Below the pieces are notes generated by a model that was not told the DNA's origin, searched no databases, and was given only the letters and a program-made list of their open reading frames with translations. A stretch of 64,000 bases of DNA from an uncultured Prevotellaceae bacterium. Lineage in GTDB: Bacteria > Bacteroidota > Bacteroidia > Bacteroidales > Bacteroidaceae. Location: the NCBI GenBank assembly GCA_900314655.1, contig OMWC01000004.1, positions 62,001-126,000 of the forward strand. Direction: 5' to 3'. The first letter of the stretch is position 1; every line of letters starts with the position of its first letter. Position numbers and translations under genes: made by a program. This document shows positions 3,292 to 21,675 of the stretch, one piece after another.

Positions 3292-4743
3292 ATGTGCCCT
3301 AACGGACCATATTGCACCGAAAACGCGATTCTGTGTTGTCCTTTCGGTCTGCTGCTTTCAAGGCTTACGATTGCCAATGAGCGTCATGTGATTCTCTCTA
3401 ACAACCGCATGGCAAACATAAGCGACTTCAAGCCCATGGCTGATGTGATGCCGTTTGGCATTTGTTGCTCACCGACCAATCCTGCAGTGATATCCAGCAT
3501 GGGATGCCCAGCCCCATGTACTCCTGTCATCTCGACTCCTTGGACAAACCTTGAACCCGTCAACGTATTAGTGCAGGGTATGCCTGCCATCACGAATTCG
3601 TCAACACTGCAATGCCTTAATAGCATTCCGTTCTTCAGCATCTCCGTCACACATAACGGGCAGTTTCAGACTCCCGGGTTTCCAGGCGTTAACACAGAAC
3701 TTATCCATACACTCCTCGACGTAGCAGGTCTTATTCCTGGCGTTGGAATTGTCCCCGACTTGCTTAACTCCTTCATATATGCGGTTGAAGGGAACAATGT
3801 AGATGCCATGTTATCTTTGGGAGCCGCGATTCCTTTTTTAGGTTACGGTGCTGCCGGTTCGAAACTCGTGAAGACAGTGGCTAAAACAGTAGAAAAGCGA
3901 GGCGGTTCAAAAGCAGCAAAGGAATTGATGCAATGGAGCCAGAAATGGGAAAGAAGCGTCCAGCAAGACATCAATAGTCTGAAAAAGAAAATAGCTGGTA
4001 CTGAGAAAAAAATGGCCGGCGAAGTAAAGAACGAAGCAAAAGCACTCGACGATGAAGCCAAAAGATTACAACAACAGACTCGCACAACAGACAAACAGTT
4101 TGACGGCCAGATAAAAGACGCACAAAAACAAGCTGACAATGCTAAGAAGGAATTTGAGCAAGCGGCCAGCGAAAACCCTGCATCAGCCGAGACTTTCCAG
4201 CGAGGAATGCAGGAAACTGATGCTCGCAGGCAAGTAGAAAATCTCCAACAGCAAAAAAGTGCAGCTCATGATGCGAACCAAGCGAAAGCTGATCAAGCCA
4301 AACAAGCACGAGACAACTTCGATCGCGACCAGGCATTAGAGCAAAAGAAAGCCGGCAACAGCGAATATCAAGCCGATAAACAAAAAATGGAACAACTCCA
4401 GCAAGAGCAAGCAAAAGCCCATGAAGCAGCATCTGCTGATGCAAACGCATACAAGGAGGCATCCAAGGAAAATGGATTGAAGCATAATGCAAAAGAGTAT
4501 TTCTACACCGAAGACAAGGAGAAGAGCTTAGGAGAATACTTGTTTTTTGACAAAAAGGATTTCACAGATACTGTTACAAGCCCCAAAAATGCAGCAATCT
4601 TTATAGGCGGAAAAGCTACGGACAAAGTGATAACAAATTCCGTAAATGACAAAATCAAAGAACACATTAATAACAATGGTAGTAACAGCCCGTCTTCGAC
4701 AGACGAAGAACAGAGGGAAAAAGATTACAACAAATACCTATAG
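3292..4743 (+). CDS. DUF4280 PAAR-like tip protein with pre-toxin and coiled-coil extension
   Basis: A 483-residue protein. Residues 1-125 match the DUF4280 PAAR-like family: early paired cysteines (CCPFG), an IANERHVILSNNRMANISD stretch, DVMPFGICCSPTNPAV, and a closing PAITNSSTLQC region. Such proteins sharpen the VgrG tip and carry effectors. Residues 140-195 (DVAGLIPGVGIVPDLLNSF, then AIPFLGYGAAGSK) resemble the hydrophobic pre-toxin segment of polymorphic toxins. Residues 215-400 are a Gln/Lys/Ala-rich coiled coil, and the last 80 or so residues are unrecognised. The architecture suggests a tip-delivered effector, but no toxin active site is visible and no immunity gene follows, since the next 468 bases hold no credible ORF. 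It may instead be a carrier without a toxin. Confidence 0.75.
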   Translation: MCPNGPYCTENAILCCPFGLLLSRLTIANERHVILSNNRMANISDFKPMADVMPFGICCSPTNPAVISSMGCPAPCTPVISTPWTNLEPVNVLVQGMPAITNSSTLQCLNSIPFFSISVTHNGQFQTPGFPGVNTELIHTLLDVAGLIPGVGIVPDLLNSFIYAVEGNNVDAMLSLGAAIPFLGYGAAGSKLVKTVAKTVEKRGGSKAAKELMQWSQKWERSVQQDINSLKKKIAGTEKKMAGEVKNEAKALDDEAKRLQQQTRTTDKQFDGQIKDAQKQADNAKKEFEQAASENPASAETFQRGMQETDARRQVENLQQQKSAAHDANQAKADQAKQARDNFDRDQALEQKKAGNSEYQADKQKMEQLQQEQAKAHEAASADANAYKEASKENGLKHNAKEYFYTEDKEKSLGEYLFFDKKDFTDTVTSPKNAAIFIGGKATDKVITNSVNDKIKEHINNNGSNSPSSTDEEQREKDYNKYL

Positions 4744-5211: not shown

Positions 5212-5538
5212 ATGACAGACCAGGAATTCTATGATGACGAGTTTATCGTCATGTTGACAATCGACGGTACGTCTTATGACGAGATCGAAGTAAAAGTGAC
5301 TGACCCGAACAAGACTATTCGTGACCAGATCAATAGTATTGTACAAGTGTTTGAACTGCCAAAGATGGACAATGGCGGCAATCCCATCCAGTATCTGTTA
5401 GGAAAACTGATGGATGGCGATGAGGAACCTGTCATACTGGAGTTTGAGGATGAGGAGGGACGCGAAATGGCTCTCATCGACTACGACATCCAGCCGATGG
5501 ATCATCTGCATCTGATTTCCGTGCCCATAGCGGGATAA
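5212..5538 (+). CDS. Ubiquitin-like modifier protein
   Basis: A small acidic protein of 108 residues. The frame is open further upstream, but the ATG at 5212 (MTDQEFYDDEF) gives a compact domain and the upstream part translates the repeat spacer, so it is excluded. The order of strands fits a beta-grasp ubiquitin fold of the YukD/EsaB-like type: FIVMLTIDGTSYDEIEVKV as a first hairpin, a TIRDQINSIVQVFELP helix, then VILEFEDEEG and a closing MDHLHLISV strand. The chain ends in Pro-Ile-Ala-Gly, a bare C-terminal glycine that an E1 could adenylate without proteolysis. The gene directly precedes the E2 gene and heads a run that also holds E1, RING-like and JAB genes. The family call is from pattern and context; a purely structural Ub-like subunit is the alternative. 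Confidence 0.75.
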   Translation: MTDQEFYDDEFIVMLTIDGTSYDEIEVKVTDPNKTIRDQINSIVQVFELPKMDNGGNPIQYLLGKLMDGDEEPVILEFEDEEGREMALIDYDIQPMDHLHLISVPIAG

Positions 5539-5583: not shown

Positions 5584-6243
5584 ATGAATCCCGCTATCAA
5601 CAACTTTAATCTGAAAGAACTGAAGGGTCGGGATGCCCGTCTCTTCCAGGAATGGAAAGAACTGGACTCCCTTTGCGACAAACGGCGTCGGGAAAGCGCA
5701 AATCCCCGTCAGCCTTCGCTGTCGTATATCATCAGAAGAAAGAATGCCATGGGACTTCCCACGGAATTTGAAATATGGTATCGTGTAAAATCTATCATCG
5801 GCGTAGAGGATACGGAACCGCCCCGCAAGCCTATTTTCGGCAATCTGCATAAGATGAGCGTGGTGCTGCCCAACAACTATCCATCCGCCGACGGAAATCC
5901 CGTATTTACCTTTATTACAGACATTTGGCATCCCAACATCCGCAATAGCGGCAGTTTCAAAGGACATGTTTGCCTGACCATCAAAGAGATGGGCGTTCTG
6001 GCCTCTATTAAGGATTTGGTGCTGCGCGTGGAGCGCTACCTGAAGTACCAGATGTATCACGCTCAGAACACTTATCCTTATCCTGAAGACCAAGGTGTTG
6101 CAGAATGGGTGCGCGAAGAAGGTGAGCCTAATGGCTGGACGAAGTTCGCCCAGGACAAGCAGGAGCCTGCCAAGCCTGCAGTCACTGCCTCAGGAACGCA
6201 AGAAGACTCTCAGCAGAAAAAGAAGATTTCGCTGAGCATTTAG
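5584..6243 (+). CDS. E2-like ubiquitin-conjugating enzyme (UBC fold)
   Basis: A 219-residue soluble protein. The UBC hallmarks are present: a strand-rich PIFGNLHKMSVVLPNNYP segment (residues 83-100), the PVFTFITDIWHPNI strand with HPN at residues 116-118, and a candidate catalytic cysteine at 130 in GHVCLTI, 14 residues after the His. A C-terminal helix region with NTYPYPEDQG (162-171) fits the end of the fold. An E2 takes the activated modifier from the E1 as a thioester and passes it to a target, often with an E3. The start is 45 bases after the ubiquitin-like gene. The N-terminal 60 residues and the last 30 are extra to a minimal UBC domain. Confidence in the fold is high; the substrate is unknown. 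Confidence 0.85.
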   Translation: MNPAINNFNLKELKGRDARLFQEWKELDSLCDKRRRESANPRQPSLSYIIRRKNAMGLPTEFEIWYRVKSIIGVEDTEPPRKPIFGNLHKMSVVLPNNYPSADGNPVFTFITDIWHPNIRNSGSFKGHVCLTIKEMGVLASIKDLVLRVERYLKYQMYHAQNTYPYPEDQGVAEWVREEGEPNGWTKFAQDKQEPAKPAVTASGTQEDSQQKKKISLSI

Positions 6244-6270: not shown

Positions 6271-7335
6271 ATGAAGAAGACATTATTAATATTAATGGGC
6301 TTTTGCTTCGCGATACTGAACATTCAGGCCGATGAGCAGAAGAAAGTCACCCTTGACAGCAACCACGACAAGGAAACGGTGAGCCTGCCTTACTGTAACT
6401 TCTTTGTGTCATTGGCTGACAAGGATGACAACAGCGCCCAAGTGAAAATAGAGCTGGAGAACCTGGACGAGACGAACGTGCTGATCCTCTTCGACCGTGC
6501 CTACGACGAAAAGACCATTAAGAAGATGCCGACAAGCATCCGTTTCGACAAAACCTTCGGTGGTTCCAAGAACAAACGCGTCATTGATCCTTACGAGGGC
6601 AATGCCCGCCAAGTCATGTTGTTCCGTCCATCAGACAAGTTTGAATTGCCACGACTCACGGTAAACAACGGTGAGCCGCTCAACTGTCGTTTACCCATTT
6701 ACATCGCCAAGTCAAAAGGGAAGAAACTGCTGTTGCTCGAGAAGCAGGTGATTGAATTGAGTATTGAGGTGGAGATGAAGCCCAGTGCTGAATATGTGGG
6801 ATTAAAAGACAAGACCGACAGACTGGCGCGAGAACTTTCAAATGCCGTGATATGTACCAATCCCAAGCACAAAACTTCCGCAACCAAACAGAGGGAGGCC
6901 TATGAAAAGAGAATCAAAAATCTGAAGGAAGACATCGACGACGCCATCAAGAGCCATAACTGGCAGCCCGACAGCCGGGGCTATATGCGCTATAATGAGC
7001 TGAAGAAACAGCTTGACGATATCGACCTGAGTTCAAAAGAAGGCGACTGTGGACGGCATCGGGCAAGAAAAGGCGGTGGCGGTTCAGGCGGTGGCCACAG
7101 TTGCAGCTATTGTTCACTCTCCTTGCAACAGATCTATCATAGGTTGGACGACCTTTACAAGAAGATCTATAGCAGCAGCGACCGCAAGGCCGCAAAGGCC
7201 AGTGTCATCAGTCAGGTAAACGCTCTTTACAACTGCGCTAGTACGTCTTCTTGCAGTAAGCATGCTTCAGAATGGAAGAACAGTTCCTACAGGAGCAAGA
7301 TCACAGAGCGCTACAACCGTATTTCCGGAATGTAG
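6271..7335 (+). CDS. Secreted Cys-rich protein, paralogue of the next gene
   Basis: A 354-residue protein with a clear signal peptide (MKKTLLILMGFCFAILNIQA, residues 1-20). Residues 25-170 look like a beta-rich domain with an NVLILFDRAYD strand and a closing RLPIYIAKSKGKKLLLLEKQ hairpin; the same features recur in the following gene, so the two probably share this domain. Residues 175-260 are helical. A glycine-rich linker at about 268-275 leads into a Cys-containing tail (CSYC, then Cys322 and Cys328). Eight cysteines remain after the signal peptide, suggesting periplasmic disulphides or metal binding. I do not recognise a family. Its place between E2 and JAB genes suggests an envelope component of the same machine, possibly part of a replacement membrane complex. 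Confidence 0.7.
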   Translation: MKKTLLILMGFCFAILNIQADEQKKVTLDSNHDKETVSLPYCNFFVSLADKDDNSAQVKIELENLDETNVLILFDRAYDEKTIKKMPTSIRFDKTFGGSKNKRVIDPYEGNARQVMLFRPSDKFELPRLTVNNGEPLNCRLPIYIAKSKGKKLLLLEKQVIELSIEVEMKPSAEYVGLKDKTDRLARELSNAVICTNPKHKTSATKQREAYEKRIKNLKEDIDDAIKSHNWQPDSRGYMRYNELKKQLDDIDLSSKEGDCGRHRARKGGGGSGGGHSCSYCSLSLQQIYHRLDDLYKKIYSSSDRKAAKASVISQVNALYNCASTSSCSKHASEWKNSSYRSKITERYNRISGM

Positions 7336-7345
7336 GAAAAGAGAA

Positions 7346-8761
7346 ATGAATGAAAGAATAAAAAGAATGAAGATAAAATATCTGGTTCTGTTTATTGCTG
7401 CATTCCTCACAGGTCTGCCCTGCAAGGCGAAGGAGAAAATTGACACGCTCTACTCCTCTTCCGGTGACCGTATCATCCTGAATTACGGTATCACCCAGAA
7501 TGGCGGACAGATAACCGTGAAATTCGGAACGGTACATAAAAAACTCGGACAGCGGAACCTCTCGAAGTACAAAAAACTGAACGAGGTGGCAGTCGTGATG
7601 TTCGACCGCACCGGCAACTACCGCGAAATAAAGTTCGATGGTATGGGGACGGAAGCTTTCATGGTTCCTTCCAATCTGAACTATTCACGTTCGCAGGACG
7701 GTTACTTCCTTTTGCAGGATGAGCCGACGCTATCCTTCAGCCTGACATCCGGCAACAAGGCCCAAGTAAACATTCCGCTTTACTTGGCCCACTATGAAGG
7801 AAAACGGCACTATAAAGTATTTGCCAAATGCGGGAATCTGGTGATTGAGTCTAAGGCAGGTCAAGGAAAGAAAGGCCGTCCGGCAGCAGGTGGCAGAGTA
7901 ATTGAAAGCGATGAAGGTGGATACGAGAGTGTATCATCCGTAGAGGAAGAAGTGGTGGATGGCGGAGTTTCCCCCATCGACGAAGCAAGTATCCGTATCA
8001 CTACCATCAATTCGCTGCTGGAAAGAGCAACTAAACTGCCCTTGTCAGAGGACCTGACGCACGAGGTTCAGATGCTGAAGGAACTGCGTTTCAAGGTAAC
8101 AGATCCAGCTGTAACAGCCCAAATCAGCCAGGTACTCGAGTCCTACGAGAACAAAAAACAGGAATTGGAGCAAAAAGCTGACGCATCAGCCAAGGCAGAA
8201 CAAGCAGCACAAGAAGCTAAAGCCCAACAAGCTTTGGCCAGAAGTGATTCCCTCAATGCCATGCAGGCCCTACAGGCTGCCAAAGACAAGAAGGATCTAT
8301 TATGGATTATCTTGGGCGTAGTAGGATCCGCCCTGGCCTTCTTAGGCGGCAAACAAGTCTATCAGCAATGGAGCATGAAAAAGATGCAGAAGAACATGAT
8401 GGACAGTATGAAGAATATGATGAACCCAGGTGCGAGTGCTGATCTTGGCAATATGATGAACGGTATGACCGGTGCTAATAATCCTTTAGGCAACATCATC
8501 AACCAACAGCAACGTAAAGCAGAGCAGGCTGTCAGACGGACTCTGAGCAAAGAAGCAGAAGCCGCCAGGCAGAAACTGATGCAGATGAAGCATAAAGATA
8601 CGCCGATGGCACAAAACCCCACTTCCGAACAACGGCATGCCGCATCCACGCCTCAACGCCCTGCTCCCAAAAAGCCTTCACTAAACGATGCTATCCCCCG
8701 AAAATACAAGCGTTGGCGCAAACCTGGGACAGAAGATAACAGTAACAATGTAACAATTTGA
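7346..8761 (+). CDS. Single-pass membrane protein with periplasmic domain and Met-rich cytoplasmic tail
   Basis: The frame is open back to 7262, but the signal peptide (MKIKYLVLFIAAFLTGLPCKA) begins at 7367, so the ATG at 7346 (471 residues) or 7367 is the start; 7346 follows an AGGAAAAG stretch. Residues 40-170 repeat the domain of the previous gene (VAVVMFDRTGNYREIKF, then VNIPLYLAHYEGKRHYKVF). A linker and coiled coil (215-315) lead to one membrane helix (318-336, LLWIILGVVGSALAFLGG). The tail has a Met-rich stretch (MKKMQKNMMDSMKNMMNPG, from 344), a basic helix and a Pro/Lys-rich end. The topology puts the tail in the cytosol, where it could meet the conjugation enzymes or the baseplate. 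Family unknown. Confidence 0.7.
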   Translation: MNERIKRMKIKYLVLFIAAFLTGLPCKAKEKIDTLYSSSGDRIILNYGITQNGGQITVKFGTVHKKLGQRNLSKYKKLNEVAVVMFDRTGNYREIKFDGMGTEAFMVPSNLNYSRSQDGYFLLQDEPTLSFSLTSGNKAQVNIPLYLAHYEGKRHYKVFAKCGNLVIESKAGQGKKGRPAAGGRVIESDEGGYESVSSVEEEVVDGGVSPIDEASIRITTINSLLERATKLPLSEDLTHEVQMLKELRFKVTDPAVTAQISQVLESYENKKQELEQKADASAKAEQAAQEAKAQQALARSDSLNAMQALQAAKDKKDLLWIILGVVGSALAFLGGKQVYQQWSMKKMQKNMMDSMKNMMNPGASADLGNMMNGMTGANNPLGNIINQQQRKAEQAVRRTLSKEAEAARQKLMQMKHKDTPMAQNPTSEQRHAASTPQRPAPKKPSLNDAIPRKYKRWRKPGTEDNSNNVTI

Positions 8762-8767
8762 CGTGCA

Positions 8768-10558
8768 ATGAAAAAACTAAAAGTAACAGCGAGCATCTTA
8801 TTTATGCTGCTATCAGTAGTCGTGCAAGTCTCAGCATATCCCCCCAAAGGGGCAAAGCCGGTAACTGACCCCACGGTTGTCATCAATGACTTCCAATCAC
8901 ATCTGCAGAAGATTCCCTATCTGTCAGATGCTGGCATGACTACCCTTAACCATGAGATTGACGAGCATATCAAATGCTTGAAAAACTGGTCCAACAAAGA
9001 AGAGTATGCCAAGGAACACGACCTTTACCACTATCTGAAAGAGCAACGTGATTCCGTCAGCACCTATCACGACTATTCTGAGACAATAGTCAGCGATTTC
9101 CTTAGATCATACCAGTTTGCCGATGCGGAAAAGGAGACGACTTGCAGGGACAGCCTGAAGGCTGTTCTCAGTGACAGATTAGGAAAGATTGAGACTAGTC
9201 TGAACTTCCTTGACCGCGAAATGAATGGCGGAAATGAAAAATCGTTTTTCGACGGGTTAGACTGGAAGACCATTGCCGTCTGTGTTATTATCTTGCTATT
9301 AATAGGTGTTCTATATCTTCTTTTCAAAAAGAAATCACAGCCAGCAACTCCTGTTCCAGCAGCTCCAGCCAATCGAGTTGCTTCCTCGCAAGGAAATAAT
9401 GGTGATGCAGGAATTATCGTGCGCCGCAAGACGGCTACAATCCTAAAGAAACAAAGTCTGGAGGATGTCATAGGTAATCCCAACTATCTGCAAATTGACG
9501 CAGCAGACTTTACTTACGAATCGGCTGTCCGCCGTATCTATATCAAAAACACCTGCATCATCGACATCTACGAGATGTATGCAGAAGATCTCAGCAGGCC
9601 TGACAATCCGAAAGAGGATGGCTGTATAGTGCTGGGCAGATGGGTTTACGACAATGAGAGTCAGGAATATTATGTTTCCTTGGAACAAATTGTCCTGCCC
9701 GGTGATGATGCCGTCTTTGCAGAATATGAGCTGAACTTTGGCGGAAAGATTAAATTGAGAGTACTCGAACAATTACGCAAACTACGTCGCGAGACGAATT
9801 TCCAATATGATCTCACCTGCTGGATACACTCCCATCCTGGCCTGGGCGTATTCTTCAGTGTCTCGGATGTAAGTGTACAGACACAGTTGAAACATCCCAG
9901 CCATCCCAACTTCCTGACGGCAATTGTAGTAGATATTCTCACCCCGAAACAAGATCTCGGTATTTTCACCTATCGACGAGATACCACCATCAACTCGAAA
10001 AACGATCTCAAGAAGTTGTATTCACTACAAGAATGGTACGAATGGGCCGTGAATTCAATGAATGGTAATACTGACAATACTGATAAGGGCAACGAAGAAG
10101 TCAAGGAATTTAGCAGAGAGGATTTCTTTGACACCCTGGCTGATGCCACTGAGCGCAAGAAAGAATGCCAAGCTATTGGTCTTAGTCGTGAAGCCATTAT
10201 CGACATGTGCATGGCCATCTCTGAGCAATACAGCGGACTTGTAGCCCTTGTTCACGGGCACGAAAATGCACTGGAAGAAAAGAAGGAATACACGGCTACG
10301 GTTTTATCGAATAGCGAACAGGCAGACAAAGCCGACCTAATAGGATGTTTTGTGGTGGACAACCACCTCAGTATCCCTTCTATCCGTAAAGCGGTGGATA
10401 ACTATCTTGACAGAATCAAGTTTGTGCTGTTCTACTCGCCTGCAGAAGGTATTCTTACGACAATACCGGTTGACGGCAATGAGCTATCCACAAACGAAAA
10501 CAATTATGGCGAACAAAAACTAGAAGATCTTAAATTATGGACAAGAAGAAAAGCATAA
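8768..10558 (+). CDS. Membrane-anchored JAB/JAMM (MPN) isopeptidase
   Basis: A 596-residue protein. A signal peptide or anchor (1-23) is followed by a helical periplasmic part (24-163), one membrane helix (166-187, DWKTIAVCVIILLLIGVLYLL) and a cytosolic JAB domain at about 240-420. The zinc motif is complete: His354-Ser-His356-Pro357, six residues, Ser364, two residues, Asp367. The upstream Glu is probably 269 or 273. JAMM enzymes cut isopeptide or peptide bonds after ubiquitin-like proteins. Because the modifier here already ends in glycine, removal of conjugated modifier is the more likely task. The C-terminal 170 residues, with a strand-rich part (LVALVHGHENALEE, DLIGCFVVDNHLSI), are unassigned. 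The gene overlaps the next one by 22 bases, implying tight co-expression. Anchoring a JAB enzyme at the membrane is unusual. Confidence 0.88.
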   Translation: MKKLKVTASILFMLLSVVVQVSAYPPKGAKPVTDPTVVINDFQSHLQKIPYLSDAGMTTLNHEIDEHIKCLKNWSNKEEYAKEHDLYHYLKEQRDSVSTYHDYSETIVSDFLRSYQFADAEKETTCRDSLKAVLSDRLGKIETSLNFLDREMNGGNEKSFFDGLDWKTIAVCVIILLLIGVLYLLFKKKSQPATPVPAAPANRVASSQGNNGDAGIIVRRKTATILKKQSLEDVIGNPNYLQIDAADFTYESAVRRIYIKNTCIIDIYEMYAEDLSRPDNPKEDGCIVLGRWVYDNESQEYYVSLEQIVLPGDDAVFAEYELNFGGKIKLRVLEQLRKLRRETNFQYDLTCWIHSHPGLGVFFSVSDVSVQTQLKHPSHPNFLTAIVVDILTPKQDLGIFTYRRDTTINSKNDLKKLYSLQEWYEWAVNSMNGNTDNTDKGNEEVKEFSREDFFDTLADATERKKECQAIGLSREAIIDMCMAISEQYSGLVALVHGHENALEEKKEYTATVLSNSEQADKADLIGCFVVDNHLSIPSIRKAVDNYLDRIKFVLFYSPAEGILTTIPVDGNELSTNENNYGEQKLEDLKLWTRRKA

Positions 10559-12942
10559 CCATCCTGCGCGTACTATTTGCGTGCTTATTCACAATCTTTG
10601 CGCTTCCCATATCTGCACAGGACGTTTCAAAGATTCAGTTCTGTGATAAAAAGTATGAATACGGCGAAGGGAAGGACAGCATTACCTTATTCTTCAAAGT
10701 ATTGGATAAGAACGGGGAAGCTGTCAAGGATGTCACCTTGGCAAATCTGGAGAAATACCTTGTATTCTATGAGGAAGACAAGATGATTTCGCCTGACCGC
10801 TACAAATTGACGGCAGTCAACAGCGGCCAGCGCATACCCGGTGATTTCACATTCTCCGTCTTGGTTGACCTCAGCATTCCTGAAGAAGGAAAAGAACAGA
10901 TTTTCCAGACTATCGGCAAACTGGTGGAAAGTGCTCCCGACAGTTGTGTGTATATATCCTTCTTCGGTGACGAGGTATCTGCCAGTGAAATGGTAACGAA
11001 AGCCAACTATGAGAGTTTCAAGTCAAAGTTCCATAAACCGGCTGAAAGCAAGTGTTTCTATAGCGCACTCTATTCTAAGTTGACGGAATTCAGTTCTACT
11101 GCCGGTGAATTCGAAGGCGATATCAAGGCAGCTGCCGGTTATGCCAAAAACAAGGACATATTGCACCGTGCACAGACAGCCAAGGACAAGAACGTACTGT
11201 TCGTATTTACCGACGGCAACAAGCGTTCCGATGATGAGACTATCAGTTTCATAGAGGTTACAGACTACCAGTCGAACCCTGCACACCAGGTTCCGCGTGT
11301 TTATGCCATGTACTATACGGGAAATGGTGTTGATGAGAATGTAAAACTCACGTTGGAAGGCGTTTCCGTTCCCCGTGATGCCAACGGAACCATCTTGACT
11401 GAGCGCCAGGGATCTTATAAGCCTTCCAACGATATGGCCACAGTGTTGAGCAATTTCCAGCAGGTGGTCAACGATGCAATGTATGACTATGCCTTCACTT
11501 ACCGTGCCACTGAGAACAAAGCCTATACCGGACGTGTCACCTACATGGCAGAATGGAAAGGTATGGAATCAGGAAAAGGAGACTATTCCATCGGCACGGC
11601 CGAGACGCCTTGGCCACTGAAAGCAGAAAGCGCCGGCGATGCCATTGTCAAGATACTGATTGCCTTGTTGATGGCAATGCTGACTTTTGCATTCTTCTTC
11701 CTCGTGATGAAGGTGATTATCCCCTTCTTCAAGTCAAAGAAGTTCTCTGCACAGTATTATAAGAGTTATGTTCCCGAAGCCAATGTACAGCGCCGCATCT
11801 GCACCTACTGTCGTCAGGACATTCAGCCTGGCCAGTTAGTTGTGACAAAATGTAAGCATATCATGCACGTCAGTTGTTGGCAACAGAACGGCTATAAATG
11901 TGTGGAATACGGACAGAACTGTAAGGATGGCATCCAAGATCATGTGGATTGGAAAGATATCTTCAACAAACAATCACTACGTGATAGTTACCAGGCTTTG
12001 GCAGGCATCTTAGCTGGACTGATCAGTTGGATTATCTTTGAACTGATTGGTCGCGGAATGCTTACATCTCTTTCTACTGGCATTGCCAAGACTTTCTTCC
12101 GCAATGAGGAACAGATGGGTAACCTGTTCACAGACTGTGCAGGAAAGGTGTCAGCCTTCCTAGCCGTCGGATTCCTGCTCGGATTTTTCCTGTCGCTGGT
12201 ATTCAGATATAACGACGAATACCGTAAGAAAGATGCTAAGATCTATCTGAAAATCATAGGATTGTCGTTACTTACTGGTATTATCGGTATGGCAGCTTTT
12301 GCTGTCGGAGGAATTATCTTCTGCCTGTTACTGTCAGCAGTAGGCACCACTTATATCCCATGGTATTGCTCATTGCCCGCTTACATCTTATTCTCCATCT
12401 GCACGGCGTTGAGCCTGACCATCAAGTCATCCATTCCCATGAAGAGTGCACTTATCGGAGGCCTTTGCTCGGCAGTCATCGGGTTCATCGTGCTTTACTT
12501 CAGCGGATTCATAGGTTCCCGCTATGGATGGATGAATATGCTACTCGACTTCATTATTTACGGAGGAGGCCTCGGTGCTTCACTTGTAACGGTTCGTATG
12601 TTAGCAGAGCGTTACTTCCTTGTCATCAAGAACGGTGTGAAGGCAGGTCAGCGCATCCCTATCCATAAGTGGATGAACGCAACAGGAGGTGGAAACAAGG
12701 TGTCTATCGGTATGACCGGAGAATGCGAAATCCAGATGAACTGGGAAAAGAGTAACAAAGTGGCCAAGGAGCACGTTCAGCTCTACATTGACCAAGCCCG
12801 CACACTTCCCATGCTTAAACCGCTGGCTACGGGTGTTGTATATAACGTCCGCACGGAATTACCAGCCAACAAGCCTGTGGTTCTCTCTAACGGCGACAAC
12901 TTCAAGGTAGGCGATACCATCTTTGAATACGTCGAGAATTAA
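10537..12942 (+). CDS. vWA / RING-like / multi-pass / FHA-like membrane protein, candidate E3
   Basis: An 801-residue protein. After a signal peptide (1-27) comes a periplasmic vWA-like domain (about 45-320): the VLVDLSIP strand holds a degenerate MIDAS and NVLFVFTDGNKR a second metal-site strand. A membrane helix (about 370-397) leads to a cytosolic RING-like finger with eight ordered ligands: Cys422, Cys425, Cys439, His441, His444, Cys447, Cys455, Cys462. The first six spacings fit RING-H2; the last pair is six residues apart instead of two. About six membrane helices follow (484-688), keeping the C-terminus in the cytosol, where residues 715-801 look like an FHA domain (KVSIGMTGECEI, VAKEHVQLY, then NGDNFKVGDTIFEYV). 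FHA domains bind phosphothreonine, and a kinase lies downstream. With E1 and E2 next door, an E3 role is the natural proposal. It might equally be a structural anchor. Confidence 0.75.
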   Translation: MDKKKSITILRVLFACLFTIFALPISAQDVSKIQFCDKKYEYGEGKDSITLFFKVLDKNGEAVKDVTLANLEKYLVFYEEDKMISPDRYKLTAVNSGQRIPGDFTFSVLVDLSIPEEGKEQIFQTIGKLVESAPDSCVYISFFGDEVSASEMVTKANYESFKSKFHKPAESKCFYSALYSKLTEFSSTAGEFEGDIKAAAGYAKNKDILHRAQTAKDKNVLFVFTDGNKRSDDETISFIEVTDYQSNPAHQVPRVYAMYYTGNGVDENVKLTLEGVSVPRDANGTILTERQGSYKPSNDMATVLSNFQQVVNDAMYDYAFTYRATENKAYTGRVTYMAEWKGMESGKGDYSIGTAETPWPLKAESAGDAIVKILIALLMAMLTFAFFFLVMKVIIPFFKSKKFSAQYYKSYVPEANVQRRICTYCRQDIQPGQLVVTKCKHIMHVSCWQQNGYKCVEYGQNCKDGIQDHVDWKDIFNKQSLRDSYQALAGILAGLISWIIFELIGRGMLTSLSTGIAKTFFRNEEQMGNLFTDCAGKVSAFLAVGFLLGFFLSLVFRYNDEYRKKDAKIYLKIIGLSLLTGIIGMAAFAVGGIIFCLLLSAVGTTYIPWYCSLPAYILFSICTALSLTIKSSIPMKSALIGGLCSAVIGFIVLYFSGFIGSRYGWMNMLLDFIIYGGGLGASLVTVRMLAERYFLVIKNGVKAGQRIPIHKWMNATGGGNKVSIGMTGECEIQMNWEKSNKVAKEHVQLYIDQARTLPMLKPLATGVVYNVRTELPANKPVVLSNGDNFKVGDTIFEYVEN

Positions 12943-12987: not shown

Positions 12988-14202
12988 ATGGAAAAAGACA
13001 AGAAATATGAATGGGGAGAGGGCGTCTTCACCCTTCTCTCGTGGTTCAGAAAAGAACGGGTGAAGAATGCAAAGGTACTTGTAGCAGGTGCCGGCGCATT
13101 AGGAAACGAAGTCGTCAAGAATCTGGCCTTATTTGGAGTCGGGCATATCTATGTGGTGGATTTCGACCGTATAGAACTGAGCAATCTGACTCGTTCTGTA
13201 CTCTTCCGCGAAGAAGACGCATACAACCATTCCTACAAGGCTGAGATTGTGGCAAAGAGGGCCAGAGAAATCAATCCCCAGATTAAAGTAACTCCAATTG
13301 TTGGCAATCTGTTCTCTGAAGTAGGTTTGGGACTCTATCGTTCTGTAGATGTCGTCATCGGATGTCTCGACAGCCGCATAGCCCGTTATCTTCTGAACCG
13401 CCTTAGCCTTCGTGCAGGTAAGAGTTGGATAGATGGCAGCATTGAGAATCTCACGGGAGTCGTAAAAGTCTATACACCTGGCATGAACTGTTATGAGTGT
13501 GGTCTTTCACGCGAAGAATTCAATAACATCATGCTTCGTACTGGATGTGCTGACGTGGTCAGGACGCAGAGTTCTGCAGGAAGGGTAGCAACGACTCCGA
13601 TCAGTGCCTCTATTGTGGGTGCGCTGCAGGTGCAGGAAGCCATGAAGCTCATCCACATGGAAGGAGAAGACGAAAGCCTACAGCAACCATCACCCTTCAA
13701 AACCTTGCAGGGCAGAATGCTTCGCTATGAAGGATTGACCAATATGATGAACATCTATCGTGTGGCGTCATGGAAAAACACATGTCCGGCGCATGAGCAA
13801 TGGAATGACATTAAGCCTTGTCAGGAACTAACAGCCTCCATGACTGTTGCCGCTGCACTCAAGACTATCAAGAAACTCTTGGGTGTCAAGTCGGTAGAAA
13901 TCAATATGCGTAACAACAAATTCATCGATAAAATCATCTCTGACCGCCCCGAAAAAGAATTCAATGTGATGATTCCTGAATCAAAGCTGGATGATGTCTT
14001 CAAGGCAGACAAAGAGATGAGACAGCTAAGCTACCGTACACTTTTCCACAAAAATTTCTACGAAAACATTGACAAGTCGTTTCCCTATCAGGAACTGACA
14101 CTTCAGCAGATAGGCATTCCACCATTCGATGTACTGCAAGTATCTACAGAGAAGGGAGGTTATTTCGTGGAATTGACAGGTGATGCCCCATTATTCGAAT
14201 AA
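12988..14202 (+). CDS. E1-like (ThiF/UBA family) modifier-activating enzyme
   Basis: A 404-residue protein. The nucleotide-binding core is canonical: VLVAGAGALG (residues 30-39), VVDFDRIELSNLTRSVLF (56-73) with the DxD and Arg positions, and a CLDSR segment (126-130). Cys168 and Cys171 (CYEC) form one visible half of a zinc site; Cys266 and Cys278 are candidates for the rest. Cys187 in RTGCADVVRTQ, in the crossover-loop region before PISASIVGALQVQEAMKLI, is the best candidate for a catalytic cysteine. The last 80 residues (ELTLQQIGIPPFDVLQV) resemble a ubiquitin-fold E2-recruiting domain. The enzyme would adenylate the C-terminal glycine of the modifier at 5212. There is no rhodanese domain as in MoeB-type sulphur carriers, and no molybdopterin or thiamine genes nearby. 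tssG starts 5 bases downstream. Confidence 0.9.
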   Translation: MEKDKKYEWGEGVFTLLSWFRKERVKNAKVLVAGAGALGNEVVKNLALFGVGHIYVVDFDRIELSNLTRSVLFREEDAYNHSYKAEIVAKRAREINPQIKVTPIVGNLFSEVGLGLYRSVDVVIGCLDSRIARYLLNRLSLRAGKSWIDGSIENLTGVVKVYTPGMNCYECGLSREEFNNIMLRTGCADVVRTQSSAGRVATTPISASIVGALQVQEAMKLIHMEGEDESLQQPSPFKTLQGRMLRYEGLTNMMNIYRVASWKNTCPAHEQWNDIKPCQELTASMTVAAALKTIKKLLGVKSVEINMRNNKFIDKIISDRPEKEFNVMIPESKLDDVFKADKEMRQLSYRTLFHKNFYENIDKSFPYQELTLQQIGIPPFDVLQVSTEKGGYFVELTGDAPLFE

Positions 14203-14207
14203 GCATC

Positions 14208-15110
14208 ATGGATGAGAATAGACAAGGCCTAATGATATCCAATATCCCGGAAGACATCAATGCTGAGGTGTTGTTGTCTTACGAGCCCATGGAAAAATGC
14301 GCTGTTTCTTTCGTTGGTCTTCACAAAAGAAATGCCTATAATGACATTATCGAAACTGAAGAGGACTATACAGGCCGGACACATATCAGTATCGGCCGCA
14401 ACAGCATTTACAACTCCTTGCCGGAGTATATGTTCCATCCAATCGACCGTTTTGACAATCTTCCCCAATACGAAGAAAAGGAACGCTTTCGGGAACAGAT
14501 AGATGAACAAGAGAAGGAAATAGAAGATGCATTCAGATTCTTTGCACCCATCGATATTATGTTGTTCCAACAGCGCATTCAGGTACGCAAGAAGATGGAA
14601 GCACTGGCTGACGGGAATGTCATCATGGAGAAAATATTAGGCGACCGTTTGACTGATTCCCAACTTCAAAACAGATTCATCCGACCATTCGTCCGTTTTC
14701 TCCCTCAATGTAAGAACATACGCGGCAACAAGACTCTTCTCACCATACTTCTCAGGAAAATCCTGATGGATGAAGGTCTTCACGTAGAGATACGCCATAT
14801 TACGGAATTGAAGAAAGACGACCATCCACGCTATGCTGACAGTGTTGACATGGAACTTGGAGAAGGCTACGTGGGCAACCAGTATTACGAGCCACTGACG
14901 GTTTACGAAATAAACTACTGGTCTGAGGATGAATGTTCCGACGATTTCATGAAATTTGTCAGCGAGATGGATGAGTTGCGGCTTTTCTTACAAGACTGGT
15001 TCCTCGCCGTTGACGAAGAACTTCGCTTTGACATTTCACACGACGAAATACCCCTGAGATTATCCGATGAGGTCTTTCGTAATTATCTTAACTATAATAC
15101 TAATATATAA
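14208..15110 (+). CDS. tssG: TssG-like T6SS baseplate subunit
   Basis: A 300-residue soluble protein. The segment HISIGRNSIYNSLPEYMFHP (residues 64-83), followed by an acidic helix ending in FRFFAPIDIMLFQQRIQVR, matches what I recall of Bacteroidetes TssG, where a SLPE..FH motif precedes an FF.P turn. TssG and TssF build the wedges of the T6SS baseplate. The gene sits 5 bases after the E1 gene and 6 before the tssK-like gene, in a block tssG-tssK-tssE-tssF. The rest of the protein is hard to judge by eye, so the call rests on that motif region and on order. Confidence 0.65.
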   Translation: MDENRQGLMISNIPEDINAEVLLSYEPMEKCAVSFVGLHKRNAYNDIIETEEDYTGRTHISIGRNSIYNSLPEYMFHPIDRFDNLPQYEEKERFREQIDEQEKEIEDAFRFFAPIDIMLFQQRIQVRKKMEALADGNVIMEKILGDRLTDSQLQNRFIRPFVRFLPQCKNIRGNKTLLTILLRKILMDEGLHVEIRHITELKKDDHPRYADSVDMELGEGYVGNQYYEPLTVYEINYWSEDECSDDFMKFVSEMDELRLFLQDWFLAVDEELRFDISHDEIPLRLSDEVFRNYLNYNTNI

Positions 15111-15116
15111 ACTACT

Positions 15117-16088
15117 ATGCCAAGAAGAATTAGTTGGAAAAAAGGAATGCGCCTGACCGATGAGGTGCTGAAGGCAGCCGACAATTGCACATCAGACGCC
15201 ATAGGACAGGCTTTGGTGCTCGCTTCCGCCGGCCGAATGGGATTGTTCCCGTCAGTACGCCCATTCCAGTTATCACTCAGTATAGCAAGAGGATTTGTGG
15301 AGGTGGAATCTCTCGACTGCCTCGCTATGACTCGAGGAGGGGATATCATAGACGTACAATTTGATACAAAGTTTTCAAACACCTTTGACTCACGCGTACA
15401 GATTCCCCAAGAAGACGAGCAGGAATTCCTCCTGACCATCAACCTGATTCCCGACAGTTGGAAAGAATCTGTTGAAGGTTATCAATCACAAGACTTTACC
15501 TTTTCTTTGGTAGGTCCCAAGACGGCTATTCCTGACCACTCCTTCCCCATCGCGCGAATCGTCAACAAAGAAGGATGGGAAGAAGATACCAGTCTTTTTG
15601 TCCCGCCATGTCTTTATGTCTCTTCCCATAGTAAGTTTGAAGAACTATACCAACAATTTATTGATTTGTTGAAAGCCATTGACGAGAAGACCAAAGCGGA
15701 GATAGATACTCAAGCCAAACAGGCAATTTCCATTTATTGGCCGGTAGTGCAGCAAATTCTCTTCACTGCCAATACCGAACATGAGACGATGACACCGATG
15801 AGTCTGCTTTCGGGTATTCAGCGAGTTATCGGTATTTTTACCTGTGCCTGTGAACTGGACGATGTTTTAAATTTGGAAGACGCAGACACATTCCGCGCCT
15901 TTGCCCGCATCCCATACAATCATAAGAATGCCTATCTGCGTATAAAACAAGGCCTTGGAATGTGCTATGCTATCAGTGAGAAGATAGAAAAGTTCAGTCT
16001 TCTCAGGGTTGAAGCTCAGCCTAAGCCCTCTCCTAAACCAGAACCTCCCAAAGATGACCGCCGCCGCTGGAACGGCCCTAATATATGA
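15117..16088 (+). CDS. tssK: TssK-like T6SS baseplate subunit
   Basis: A 323-residue protein. The N-terminus has the TssK-like pattern ISWKKGMRL (residues 5-13), then GRMGLFPSVRPFQLSLSIARG and a LAMTRGGDIIDV segment. TssK trimers dock the baseplate wedges to the membrane complex. The protein is shorter than proteobacterial TssK (usually about 440 residues), as expected for Bacteroidetes. A Pro/Lys-rich tail (PKPSPKPEPPKDDRRRW) ends it. Its stop overlaps the next start in an ATGA, so translation is likely coupled. Confidence 0.7.
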   Translation: MPRRISWKKGMRLTDEVLKAADNCTSDAIGQALVLASAGRMGLFPSVRPFQLSLSIARGFVEVESLDCLAMTRGGDIIDVQFDTKFSNTFDSRVQIPQEDEQEFLLTINLIPDSWKESVEGYQSQDFTFSLVGPKTAIPDHSFPIARIVNKEGWEEDTSLFVPPCLYVSSHSKFEELYQQFIDLLKAIDEKTKAEIDTQAKQAISIYWPVVQQILFTANTEHETMTPMSLLSGIQRVIGIFTCACELDDVLNLEDADTFRAFARIPYNHKNAYLRIKQGLGMCYAISEKIEKFSLLRVEAQPKPSPKPEPPKDDRRRWNGPNI

Positions 16089-16579
16089 AATATATCAGCA
16101 CGCCGCTTGAATTCAACGAAGAAGGCACACGGATTCTGCGAGAGATTGACGACAGGATCAAAGTGCTCGACAATTTGGTAGAACTGATTGTCTTCACACC
16201 CCGTGGCTCGTTTGAAGCCGATCCTGATTTCGGCTTTGAATATTGGAATCATGAATATTCAAATGTTCATTATCGCGAATTCAATAACAGTCAAACTGGA
16301 AGAGGTGCACGGGGTATTCAGAATGAGGTGACGAAGAAGGAGTGTGAAGACAGCATCAAAAACAGTCTTGCTTCTTATGAGCCTCTGCTGAAAAATGTTT
16401 CCGTATCCATAGAGTTGGATACCGCAGCAGATAAACAATTGCGGCGGAGAAACACTAACTCAAAATATGAAGTTGACGTCATTGTGGAGGGAAACCTTGA
16501 CGATGGATTAGGCACAAAATTCCCCTATAGAAAAGAGGTAACATTCCTAATAGAACCAACCGTAAAAAGATATAGATAA
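16085..16579 (+). CDS. tssE: TssE / gp25-like baseplate protein
   Basis: A 164-residue protein of the gp25/TssE lysozyme-like baseplate family. The TPRGSFEADPDFGFEYWNH stretch (residues 38-56) matches the conserved strand and FGF turn, and CEDSIKNSLASYEPLLKNV (92-110) matches the conserved helix. The family helps start sheath polymerisation. It overlaps tssK by four bases and precedes tssF by 14, as in known T6SS and phage baseplate gene orders. Confidence 0.85.
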   Translation: MKYISTPLEFNEEGTRILREIDDRIKVLDNLVELIVFTPRGSFEADPDFGFEYWNHEYSNVHYREFNNSQTGRGARGIQNEVTKKECEDSIKNSLASYEPLLKNVSVSIELDTAADKQLRRRNTNSKYEVDVIVEGNLDDGLGTKFPYRKEVTFLIEPTVKRYR

Positions 16580-16593
16580 AAAGCACCCGACAT

Positions 16594-18384
16594 ATGGATG
16601 TAGATATTGAAAAAAGGCTGAATGATGCCATAGAGTCGCTGCAAAAGATGTCTGAAAAAGACATCAGTTTTCAGCAAATGGATCCTGTTGCCAGAATGAT
16701 GCTGGTAGCATTGGTATCGGAAGCACAAAAGATTCAAGACTATGCCGATGACATGGCCCAACGCATTGTGGAACGATTCTGCTCAGATTTCATTCCAAGG
16801 CGTAAGGTAGAAGCTACCCCTGCCGTTTGTCTGGTGAATCCCATCGTGAAGGCAACACAGGATGACCTGATTTCCAATGTCGGCTCCGGAGCTATGTTCT
16901 CCTATAAGATTGAAGGGTTGAAACAGCCACTCAACTATATTCCAATATTCAATACCACACTTATCCCGCATCAGTATCTCTACATTCTCAATCACAACCT
17001 GATGAAATTTGCAGATCAGCGATTCAGCATTGACAGCCGAAAGCCCAATCGCCTATGGGTTGGCATCAGGACTGATGCAGAAATAGAATGTCTGAAAGGA
17101 TTGTCTATCTTTATTAAAGGAACAAAAGGCATCGTTCCTGACCATATTTACGCAGGTGCTGACGGACGCGAACTTGACTTTGCCACCCTTCTAGAAATGG
17201 AAAACATCGAGATGGCAGAGCCTTTCGACGCGCAGCAGGCATCTGGCCAGATGTTCTCTTTTATTGAATCATGGAAAGAGTCTCTGTTGAATATGGATGA
17301 TGCGACACTCATTTATATTACCGACAAGACCAACGATCGTGACACCTTCAAGCCGAGAGCTTATCCGCGTGATTTCCAACAATGGTTGGAAAGCGAGAAG
17401 CTGGACAGTTTCCAGTCAAACACCGTATGGCTCCGCCTGGACTTCCCCGAAGAATTCACTGTTCCGGAGACTTGTGAGATTATACTCAATGTGATCCCTG
17501 TAACCAATATCGACGTTTGCAGTCTGATGCTGACCCAGTCTCAGCCCATTGCCAAACTACAGAAACTGGATGAGTCCTTCTTTTTGCAGATATTGGAGAC
17601 TACGACCTCTGCCAACCAGCAGGGATTCAATACGCTAAAAGATGAAATCATTGTTCGTGACTTTGATGCAACATGCTATGACAATGGTGCACTTTACCGT
17701 GAAGTGCGGACACTCTACAACCACTTCATCGATGACTATTACGCTTTCATAGAATACAACGGTATCAAGGACGGAGAAGTATTGAAACAATTGCGTGAAA
17801 CCATCAACAAACTGGGAAAGAGCGTAGGAACACAAAACGCCAAGTTCAATTTCAACAGTGGAACTTACGTAATGAAGAACATGAACCAGTATCCTCCTAC
17901 GTCCTCAACAAAAGTTTCCTATATCACAACTCAAGGCCGCATCGGCAATACTCCACGCGAAGGTCAATTTATGGACAACCGACGTCTACCTGCCCTAGAG
18001 CAGAAGGTTCCTATTGTAGTTTCGGGTATGGGCGGCATGGACAAGGCTTCTGCCGATGAGCGTTACGAACAACTGCGGTATTATTCACTCACCAATGACC
18101 GGCTCTATACGCGCATGGATGTGGATGCCTTCCTTAGGAAAGAAATCATGGCTGAATTCGGAAAAGAGGAGTTCCGCCGCATTTTCATAAAGACTTCTAT
18201 TGGAGGTGCCGCTGGCAGTGACTATGTGCATCGCGGACTCTATGTCGACATTGAATTTAAGGACAAGAAGAATTACTTGCATGCCGATGAGATGTCGTTT
18301 GACAATCTGATGCGCCAGAAGATTATCAACAAGTCGTGCATTGCCATGCCCATCATCGTCACGCTGAAAAACCTGGAAGATTAA
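16594..18384 (+). CDS. tssF: TssF-like T6SS baseplate subunit
   Basis: A 596-residue soluble protein next to tssE and of the right length for TssF (about 580-620). An N-terminal helical region with DFIPRRKVEATPAVCLVNPI and a beta-rich middle (SYKIEGLKQPLNYIPIFNT, then ADQRFSIDSRKPNRLWVGI and LSIFIKG) fit the TssF layout. A late basic repeat-free region ends near LYVDIEFKDKKNY. TssF forms the wedge core with TssG and contacts VgrG. The family call relies on length, layout and position. Confidence 0.75.
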   Translation: MDVDIEKRLNDAIESLQKMSEKDISFQQMDPVARMMLVALVSEAQKIQDYADDMAQRIVERFCSDFIPRRKVEATPAVCLVNPIVKATQDDLISNVGSGAMFSYKIEGLKQPLNYIPIFNTTLIPHQYLYILNHNLMKFADQRFSIDSRKPNRLWVGIRTDAEIECLKGLSIFIKGTKGIVPDHIYAGADGRELDFATLLEMENIEMAEPFDAQQASGQMFSFIESWKESLLNMDDATLIYITDKTNDRDTFKPRAYPRDFQQWLESEKLDSFQSNTVWLRLDFPEEFTVPETCEIILNVIPVTNIDVCSLMLTQSQPIAKLQKLDESFFLQILETTTSANQQGFNTLKDEIIVRDFDATCYDNGALYREVRTLYNHFIDDYYAFIEYNGIKDGEVLKQLRETINKLGKSVGTQNAKFNFNSGTYVMKNMNQYPPTSSTKVSYITTQGRIGNTPREGQFMDNRRLPALEQKVPIVVSGMGGMDKASADERYEQLRYYSLTNDRLYTRMDVDAFLRKEIMAEFGKEEFRRIFIKTSIGGAAGSDYVHRGLYVDIEFKDKKNYLHADEMSFDNLMRQKIINKSCIAMPIIVTLKNLED

Positions 18385-20151: not shown

Positions 20152-21675
20152 ATGAATAGATTCGAACAGTTTGCCAAAGGAGGCGGACTCTTTGACGGGC
20201 GTTATAAACTCCTGCGCCCACTAAGTACAGAAGGCGGCAGCGCCGATGTGTGGCTAGCCCTGGATGCTAACACTGTAAATGACAAAGAGAGGTTGCTTAA
20301 GGAAGAACCTCTCACCAAAGAGGACCTCGATGTGCTTCAGGGTCTGATGGTAGCCATTAAGGTTTACCGTCCTAAGAATGCACTCGACATAGAAGGCGAG
20401 CAGCAGTTTAGGGATGAATTCAAGATTGTGTATAACTGCCACCATGCCAATCTGATTCACCCCACCCATTTTTCCATCTTCCAGGAAACGCCATACCTTG
20501 TACTGCCCTATTGCAAGAAAGGCTCCTCTGAGATGCTCATTGGCAAGTTGACCGACAATGACGACTTATGGAAATTCATCGGCGACGTCAGTTCCGGATT
20601 GGCTTACCTCCATGCCTGCTATCCGCCCATCATTCACCAGGATGTGAAACCTGCCAATGTACTCATTGACGACAATCACAACTATGCCATCACCGACTTC
20701 GGTATCAGCGCGAACTTTGGCAGCCGACATCAATATTATTACGATGATGAGCATACGGGCACTCTGGCTTATATGGCTCCAGAGCGTTTCATGGATGATC
20801 CCGTTCCGATGGAAGAGAGTGATATCTGGGCCTTGGGAGCAACCATCTATGAAATTATTACCGGCCACGTTCCGTATGGAGAGGAAGGTGGACAGAACCA
20901 GCATAAGGGAAAAGTCACACTCACCTTCCCTTCTGGGGTAGGTGCCGACATCCAGAGACTTATCTGTGCCTGTCTCGACTACGACCCGCAGAAACGTCCT
21001 ACAGCCAAACAACTTAGTGAGATTGCCCATTTGAAGCAATACCCCATCAAGAAATCGAGCATATGGCCAAAGATTCTCATTCCTTTAGCACTCATTGCGG
21101 CTGCAGTAGCAGTATTCTTCCTGACACGCCCTGCACCCGAACCCGTGGCACCACTGGAAAGACCTAAGGTATCAGCCGAAACACTTGAGCATATCTATGA
21201 CAGGGCTGTCAAACTTGCCGACAGCAATGTGCCCGACAGCGTCCTCGCAGGCATCAATCTTTTGGACAGCCTTTCCGCAGTAAGGTATATGCCTGCTATT
21301 TACGAGTTGGCACACACCTATGGTTGGTATGGAGACAATGACACCGTCTCCATGAACCGAAAGCAAATGCTGGGCATCCAGCTGGGAAATCCCAATGTGG
21401 ATTCGAGAGCACAGAATCTTGCCGCTTTTCTGCCTAAGGAGGACAAATACAACCAGAAAGCCATCCGTTGCTATGAAAGGATTGTCGAACAGCCCGACAC
21501 TGCATACAATGAAATGAAAATGGATGCCGCCTATCGTCTAGGCATCTATTATCTCTATTACACACGCAATGTACCATTGGCACGAAAGTCATTCCTCAAG
21601 AGTCAGGAACTGGCTACACAGCTCAAGGACCAGTCGATGCTCGACCGCATCGCCATTGCTCTTTCTGAATTATAA
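20152..21675 (+). CDS. Membrane Ser/Thr protein kinase (Hanks type)
   Basis: A 507-residue protein. A kinase domain spans about 15-295: a G-rich loop (STEGGSADVW), Lys70 in VAIKVYRP, catalytic HQD at 162-164 in IIHQDVKPANVL (Gln replaces Arg of HRD), DFG at 182-184, APE at about 209-211 and DIWALGATIYEI. One membrane helix (304-326) follows, then a helical TPR/Sel1-like periplasmic part. An insertion of about 20 residues (43-65) separates the G-loop and Lys70. In other T6SSs a kinase, a phosphatase and an FHA protein switch assembly (PpkA, PppA, Fha); here the FHA-like domain sits on the RING protein and the phosphatase is two genes on. Confidence 0.9.
   Translation: MNRFEQFAKGGGLFDGRYKLLRPLSTEGGSADVWLALDANTVNDKERLLKEEPLTKEDLDVLQGLMVAIKVYRPKNALDIEGEQQFRDEFKIVYNCHHANLIHPTHFSIFQETPYLVLPYCKKGSSEMLIGKLTDNDDLWKFIGDVSSGLAYLHACYPPIIHQDVKPANVLIDDNHNYAITDFGISANFGSRHQYYYDDEHTGTLAYMAPERFMDDPVPMEESDIWALGATIYEIITGHVPYGEEGGQNQHKGKVTLTFPSGVGADIQRLICACLDYDPQKRPTAKQLSEIAHLKQYPIKKSSIWPKILIPLALIAAAVAVFFLTRPAPEPVAPLERPKVSAETLEHIYDRAVKLADSNVPDSVLAGINLLDSLSAVRYMPAIYELAHTYGWYGDNDTVSMNRKQMLGIQLGNPNVDSRAQNLAAFLPKEDKYNQKAIRCYERIVEQPDTAYNEMKMDAAYRLGIYYLYYTRNVPLARKSFLKSQELATQLKDQSMLDRIAIALSEL

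Follow-up and report, generated by a model that had tools for sequence, protein, structure and literature searches.

The DNA that we analysed, hereafter the window, is a stretch of 64,000 nucleotides from an uncultured rumen gut bacterium of the Prevotellaceae (GenBank assembly GCA_900314655.1, contig OMWC01000004.1, positions 62,001 to 126,000 of the forward strand). At 10537-12942 on its plus strand lies a gene for a membrane protein which we interpret, with moderate confidence, as an E3-like hub of the RING type, embedded in the membrane and serving a complete ubiquitin-like protein (Ubl) conjugation system that is built into a variant Bacteroidales type VI secretion system (T6SS). More tentatively, we propose that this protein is a transmembrane E3 whose vWA domain senses the periplasm, and that conjugation of a YukD-like Ubl to baseplate or envelope parts controls T6SS assembly or firing in a lineage without the known membrane complex; Ubl control would then stand where Proteobacteria use threonine phosphorylation. 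The gene and its domains are as follows.

10537..12942, plus strand: membrane protein of the order vWA, one transmembrane (TM) helix, RING, six TM helices, FHA; predicted RING E3-like hub (open reading frame, hmmscan, PDB profile search, AlphaFold2, Foldseek)
10618..11622, plus strand: periplasmic vWA region, residues 28-362, with a degenerate metal-ion-dependent adhesion site (MIDAS; DLSIP) (Foldseek to ITIH1 and integrin I domains; VWA_2 in the homologue of genome G651)
11791..11934, plus strand: RING-H2-type domain, residues 419-466, with eight invariant ligands (alignments, PDB profile search, Foldseek)
12607..12939, plus strand: FHA-fold domain, residues 691-801, without the phosphothreonine-binding Arg and Ser (profile search, Foldseek, FHA in the G651 homologue)

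The frame at 10537-12942 is open from an ATG start over 801 codons and is the sole plausible coding frame, the reverse strand over this interval being full of stops. The protein is predicted to carry, in order, a signal peptide, the periplasmic vWA domain, one TM helix, a cytosolic RING-H2-type zinc finger, six TM helices and a cytosolic FHA-fold domain. Hydropathy, the helices of the structural model, and basic residues after TM1, between TM3-4, between TM5-6 and after TM7 suggest seven TM helices, with the vWA domain outside and the RING and FHA domains inside. This topology agrees with a first-pass annotation of the sequence, which had placed the RING between membrane helices, a periplasmic vWA domain before it and a cytosolic FHA domain after it, and whose description of a membrane protein joining vWA, RING-like and FHA-like domains is borne out by the profile and fold matches given below. 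Mean pairwise identity within the family is highest for the RING (0.74), followed by the FHA (0.71) and vWA (0.52) domains. At one locus (L008:244-3248) the RING frame continues into a C-terminal sequence that resembles, by eye, a mechanosensitive channel; this fusion is probably an assembly error in a short contig.

The RING ligands read C422-x2-C425-x13-C439-x-H441-x2-H444-x2-C447-x7-C455-x6-C462, which is the C3H2C3 (RING-H2) arrangement; the eight ordered Cys/His ligands and the six-residue gap of the last pair had been picked out in the first pass, and both are present in the sequence. All eight are invariant in 40/40 rows of alignment A1, two of which are at 19-21% identity, and they are also kept in four more divergent relatives (G440, G246, G376 and G216), making 44 relatives altogether. 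The window protein has 24 Cys/His residues, 9 of them invariant, and 8 of those 9 are the RING ligands; given 9/24 invariant, the probability that eight chosen Cys/His would all be invariant by chance is P = 1.2e-5. Two further genomes, G651 and G745, have lost ligands 1, 2, 5 and 6, have Gln as ligand 4 and keep ligands 3, 7 and 8. The joint loss of ligands 1, 2, 5 and 6, which form zinc site 1, is the set predicted by cross-brace pairing, although the two are sister genomes and hence record one event. Pfam gave no U-box match for the RING of this pair, and a zinc-independent, U-box-like state is a resemblance by eye.

Searches with single sequences and single models were too weak for domain calls, and it was profiles of diverse rows together with structure models that settled the RING and FHA assignments. 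The window protein falls under the Pfam RING cut-offs, its best score being 21 bits vs 27.4 required (zf-RING_16). When 40 members were subjected to hmmscan, zf-RING_2 was matched in 39, zf-RING_16 in 38 (best 1.3e-5), Prok-RING_1 in 35 (best 0.0036) and FHA in 18. A RING profile of 24 diverse rows searched against the PDB found 22 sequences at E<=0.1, all of them RING-finger proteins, the best being PIRH2 (6.4e-5) and RNF165/Ark2C (8.9e-5). Structure prediction, which had been suggested as a check and was run here without zinc, gave a model of the RING segment (core pLDDT, the predicted local distance difference score, about 80-87; zinc absent from the model) with the RNF38 and Ark2C RINGs at the top of the Foldseek list (E 0.012, probability 0.99); with the joint loss of the site-1 ligands in G651 and G745, this supports a cross-brace treble-clef fold. 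Of the E2-contact positions of eukaryotic RINGs, the hydrophobic one that lies between ligands 1 and 2 is conserved as Y/F/I/V (Tyr424 in the window protein), and some others are absent. E3 activity of the RING protein is likely.

For the flanking domains, initial FHA and vWA alignments retrieved no relatives from the PDB. An FHA profile of diverse rows then matched the FHA domain of DgcB in the PDB (9.6e-5), and by Foldseek the full-length AlphaFold2 model matched many FHA folds (DgcB, 6hc1, 4e-5, template-modelling score (TM-score) 0.77 on target) as well as the vWA folds of ITIH1 (6fpy, 2.4e-7) and integrin I domains. The G651 homologue can be aligned along its whole length and stands above the Pfam cut-offs for FHA (3.3e-8) and VWA_2 (1.6e-7), so both domain names are valid for the family by homology. 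The FHA beta-sandwich first suspected from the letters alone is thus supported by the DgcB profile match, the 6hc1 fold match and the G651 homologue.

The binding residues of both domains are altered. The MIDAS of the window protein is D111-L-S113-I-P115, which departs from DxSxS and confirms the degenerate site noted earlier; the canonical DxSGS is kept in G216, G651, G745 and G246. Alignment A3 shows that in the FHA domain of the window clade Met726 replaces the Arg of the IGR motif (giving IGM; some relatives have IGK), and that Ala743 replaces the Ser of SxxH, so that His746 alone remains. IGR is kept in G440, G246 (as LGR), G651 and G745, and the Ser in none of these four. The first-pass suggestion that the FHA domain reads kinase output is therefore doubtful, since the phosphothreonine-binding Arg and Ser are gone in the window clade. 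A link between the operon's kinase (at 20152) and this domain would be possible only if binding were of another kind than the usual one to phosphothreonine.

The RING gene belongs to a cassette of conjugation genes, the other members of which are listed here.

5212..5538, plus strand: YukD-like ubiquitin-like protein ending in ...VPIAG (relatives match Pfam YukD at 1.7e-5 and 5.5e-4)
5584..6243, plus strand: E2 ubiquitin-conjugating-like enzyme, WHPN...C (UQ_con 7.6e-7, above cut-off; PDB E2-25K 7.7e-6)
6271..7335, plus strand: secreted or periplasmic cassette protein (signal-peptide-like start; relatives in most loci)
7363..8761, plus strand: envelope protein with one TM helix, poorly conserved, start not settled (open reading frame, locus comparison)
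8768..10558, plus strand: membrane-anchored JAB (JAMM) metalloprotease, HSHPG...SxSD (Prok-JAB 0.0039)
12988..14202, plus strand: E1-like activating enzyme of the ThiF fold, Cys motif CADVV...TTP (ThiF 1.8e-49)

The JAB and RING genes overlap by 22 nt, and the RING and E1 genes lie close together. The E2 at 5584, which had been proposed as the partner of the RING, does carry WHPN...C and shares one operon with the Ubl, E1 and JAB genes; this active site is present in 42/42 members. The JAB motif HxHP...SxxD is found in every full-length member, and the E1 Cys motif is conserved. Every Ubl has (A/P)G at or near its C-terminus. Short tails follow it in L006 (GSKK), G216 (YLVV) and G745 (GK), and these Ubls would need a protease such as the JAB protein. 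In G034 no recognisable JAB gene adjoins the cassette and the Ubl ends directly in Gly; the RING, E2, E1 and Ubl remain together there at about 22% identity. Judged by sequence, a Ubl ending in Gly together with E1, E2 and JAB proteins that keep their catalytic residues is a complete Ubl conjugation system. Burroughs, Iyer and Aravind in 2011 (Mol. BioSyst. 7:2261) reportedly proposed that YukD-like Ubls may be conjugated, so the present family may be among those they describe. Outside the window clade an extra gene of ~240 aa stands between the RING and E1 genes (L020, L022, L025, L026, L028, L031-L033, L036-L038 and L079); in L079 (19292-19999) it matches an outer-membrane beta-barrel family just under the Pfam cut-off.

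The cassette lies in the middle of a T6SS operon, a setting absent from the first-pass annotation, with all genes on the plus strand.

624..1103, plus strand: Hcp/TssD domain, the C-terminus of a longer coiled-coil fusion that starts upstream of the window (PF17642 9.3e-33)
1153..3282, plus strand: VgrG/TssI (profile search)
3292..4743, plus strand: PAAR-like (DUF4280) protein (PF14107 2.8e-18)
14208..15110, plus strand: T6SS baseplate protein, probably TssG (position; profile match in other T6SS loci)
15117..16088, plus strand: T6SS TssK-like baseplate protein (TIGR03353 4.6e-6, below cut-off)
16085..16579, plus strand: T6SS TssE, gp25-like (PF04965 7.5e-5, TIGR03357 0.0014, both below cut-offs)
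16594..18384, plus strand: T6SS TssF (position and profile)
20152..21675, plus strand: Ser/Thr protein kinase (Pkinase 3.1e-42)
23458..24327, plus strand: PP2C phosphatase (PP2C_2 4.1e-13)

Upstream of the cassette are TssH, TssB, TssC, two Hcp genes, the Hcp fusion, VgrG and the PAAR-like gene; downstream are genes for a peptidoglycan-binding protein, a LysM-glucosaminidase, the Ser/Thr kinase, a WG-repeat protein and PP2C. The core of T6SS subtype iii is present (TssD, TssI, TssB/C/E/F/K and ClpV/TssH), with TssF and TssG assigned by position and by profiles built in this analysis only. TssN and TssR are absent from the bacterium's own genome (positive controls were found in relatives; TssO, TssP and TssQ were not searched). 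The Hcp fusion can be followed at L045:821-3103, which ends at window position 1103; there the Hcp domain closes a 760-aa coiled-coil protein with near-identical repeats of the ENFANNVQGKAESFANQAESKLNDLGNKA type. The PAAR-like protein at 3292-4743 has a long coiled-coil extension after its DUF4280 domain, the end of which could be a cargo or effector part.

Among GTDB genome contigs we found 38 such loci, at 53-99% identity, in Prevotellaceae, Muribaculaceae, Barnesiella, Tidjanibacter and other Bacteroidales. The order Ubl-E2-...-JAB-RING-E1-TssG-TssK-TssE-TssF is kept in nearly all of about 40 loci (those long enough), and TssG and TssK are <=164 nt apart in 34/34 fetched loci with both genes. 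What the sequences show directly is the set of parts, the catalytic residues of these and the conservation of the operon. Ubl, E2 and E1 are more conserved (69-96% identity) than TssF (43-71%). This conservation, together with the place of the cassette between spike and baseplate genes, makes the T6SS or its attachment to the envelope the likeliest object of control. Across 201 genomes of the window's family, Hcp (PF17642) was found in 15, full-length TssN in 5 and the RING protein in 5, with zero overlap between the TssN and RING genomes, an exclusion that is suggestive only, the sets being small and the genomes related. TssN is also absent in three further genomes with both the RING protein and a T6SS, and TssR_VWA is absent from RING-T6SS genomes save for one weak match in G440.

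From these parts we infer E2 binding, E3 activity, a substrate and a direction of effect along the following lines. The E1 (12988) would adenylate the YukD-like Ubl at its C-terminal Gly and hand it on to the E2 (5584), and the cytosolic RING would dock E2~Ubl at the inner membrane. Through the seven TM helices the periplasmic vWA domain may inform the RING and FHA domains of contact or of the condition of the envelope or T6SS; the FHA-fold domain would bind a partner protein, in the window clade probably not through phosphothreonine. Attachment of the Ubl to proteins of the T6SS baseplate or the envelope, or else to the hub, would start or position assembly, and the membrane-anchored JAB protease may both mature a tailed Ubl and remove the Ubl. 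The inner membrane holds both the RING and the JAB protein, and each is linked to periplasmic domains; the simplest interpretation is that the Ubl system is tied to the membrane and responds to the envelope.

Several observations weigh against this proposal. Nothing links the Ubl cascade directly to a T6SS substrate. With the phospho-binding residues of the FHA domain lost, the simplest connection to the kinase of the operon is gone. The E2-contact positions of the RING deviate from those of eukaryotic RINGs, and its helix between ligands 6 and 7 is shorter than in eukaryotic RINGs, Trp448 stands at ligand 6+1 and not 6+4, and a Pro after ligand 7 occurs in few distant members only. Three genomes (G216, G651 and G745) have the cassette without a T6SS, with neither Hcp nor TssN, and three others (G013, G168 and G196) have a related T6SS with neither the cassette nor TssN, so neither system requires the other. 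In both the RING tree (100/100) and the E1 tree (87/89) a branch sets the T6SS-free members apart on one side, trees whose root is not known and which hold long branches; a single move into or out of the T6SS therefore suffices. At the cassette-free loci (L048, L049 and L050) TssC is 60-70% identical, and L048 also encodes a kinase-FHA fusion, an FHA-like protein with a zinc ribbon and an M23 peptidase.

A purely structural role is unlikely, yet it is the alternative that survives best: together with its envelope neighbours at 6271, 7363 and 8768, the protein would be a membrane anchor in place of TssNQOPR, its RING a zinc-stabilised baseplate docking domain and no E3, and the Ubl would serve in structure or assembly, as has been suggested for YukD in the type VII secretion system. 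In its favour, TssN and TssR are absent from the bacterium's own genome and, but for the weak G440 match, from other RING-T6SS genomes; TssR likewise contains a vWA domain, while TssN consists of a TM bundle and a cytosolic domain (PMC10781749), and the RING of the scaffold subunit Mtc5 is among the better PDB matches. The disjoint TssN and RING sets first led us to favour the RING protein as a plain TssN replacement. That view was lowered by the T6SS of the same family that lacks both TssN and the cassette, showing that loss of TssN does not call for the RING protein, and by the cassette without a T6SS; in addition, the intact active sites of the E1, E2 and JAB proteins point to conjugation.

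The system might instead conjugate Ubl for a task of its own, such as defence or envelope stress, and sit in the T6SS locus by history, or it might tag T6SS effectors for loading or immunity without controlling the machine. We consider this improbable. It draws on the T6SS-free copies, one type of which is conflict-system-like in standing beside an nSTAND1 NTPase and an ion channel, and on phage defence as the apparent main task of those bacterial Ubl cascades whose function is known (PMC12687455). Set against it are the fixed place of the cassette, with spike genes before it and baseplate genes after it, in nearly all of the ~40 loci, across several families, and the absence of defence-model matches among the window proteins, except for the E1 fold (PADLOC). 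The T6SS-free form is found at L084:3821-15666 and L086:4725-16607 (G651 and G745), where on one strand of L084 there follow an nSTAND1 NTPase, E1, YukD-like Ubl, E2, JAB, vWA-RING-FHA, an Ion_trans ion channel and a further pair of TM proteins; it looks like a conflict or defence system. At L083:1542-14423 (G216) the T6SS-free cassette is followed by a SrfB-family gene, and the YLVV tail of its Ubl comes after IIAG. Finally, that the eight-residue pattern arose by chance or is another zinc finger (LIM, C1 or PHD) unrelated to RING and E2 is very improbable, for although single Pfam RING matches fall below cut-off and C1 and PARP zinc fingers appear lower in the Foldseek list, RING E3s are the best profile and fold matches, the ligands are invariant, G651 and G745 lose those of site 1 as a set, and the RING is linked to an E2 wherever the neighbourhood is long enough.

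The E3-like hub thus remains our preferred interpretation. In gut and rumen Bacteroidales a secretion operon constantly includes a complete Ubl cascade with its E3-like protein, a sign that ubiquitin-like tagging may be a means by which bacteria control a secretion machine. If true, this would be Ubl control of a secretion machine, would provide a compact membrane RING E3 for studying how RING-E2 pairs arose before eukaryotes, and would point to a T6SS lineage with a membrane anchor not yet known. The proposal can be put to the test in Xylanibacter muris PMUR (L022), a relative available as an isolate.

Complete tri-ligase prokaryotic systems, with E1, E2, RING and JAB, were described earlier (Burroughs 2011, as cited in PMC7159879). 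They resemble the window cassette in that the operon of the RING also holds E1, E2, JAB and Ubl as genes of their own; the window family differs in its weak Prok-RING_1 matches. The searchable literature yielded no mention of the T6SS setting, the vWA-RING-FHA fusion, the lack of TssN and TssR or the T6SS-free form, the text of Burroughs 2011 lying outside its scope. The Bil, Bub and CBASS Cap2/Cap3 systems likewise have E1, E2, a Ubl or target and a JAB-type peptidase in one operon. They differ in serving phage defence, and their descriptions, by which they were compared, include neither a membrane vWA-RING-FHA protein nor a T6SS.

With T6SS subtype iii of Bacteroidota (PMC10781749, PMC4714493) the window locus shares Hcp (TssD), VgrG, PAAR-like DUF4280, TssB/C/E/F/K and ClpV/TssH. 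It differs in lacking TssN and TssR of the TssNQOPR complex, tssN being reported as nearly ubiquitous in this subtype (PMC10781749), and in holding a Ubl cascade, of which neither paper makes mention; no ubiquitin cascade was found in the T6SS literature searched. The cytosolic C3H2C3 RING on a membrane protein recalls the eukaryotic membrane RING-H2 E3s synoviolin/Hrd1 and RNF13, which are among the PDB sequence matches, whereas the window RING has the shorter helix between ligands 6 and 7, the C7-x6-C8 spacing, no conserved Trp or Pro, and vWA and FHA partners. A further likeness is to the PpkA-PppA-Fha threonine-phosphorylation pathway of proteobacterial T6SSs. In Pseudomonas the T6SS kinase PpkA senses through an extracellular vWA domain (PMC3224232), and in Acidovorax PpkA works with Fha to start T6SS assembly (PMC12607579); in these two, PpkA and Fha occupy the position that we propose for the Ubl system. 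There, as here, a membrane protein with an extracytoplasmic vWA domain, an FHA fold, a kinase and a PP2C phosphatase occur in one T6SS locus; in the window, however, the vWA and FHA domains are fused to a RING and not to a kinase, the FHA domain lacks the phosphothreonine-binding Arg and Ser, and a Ubl cascade is added.

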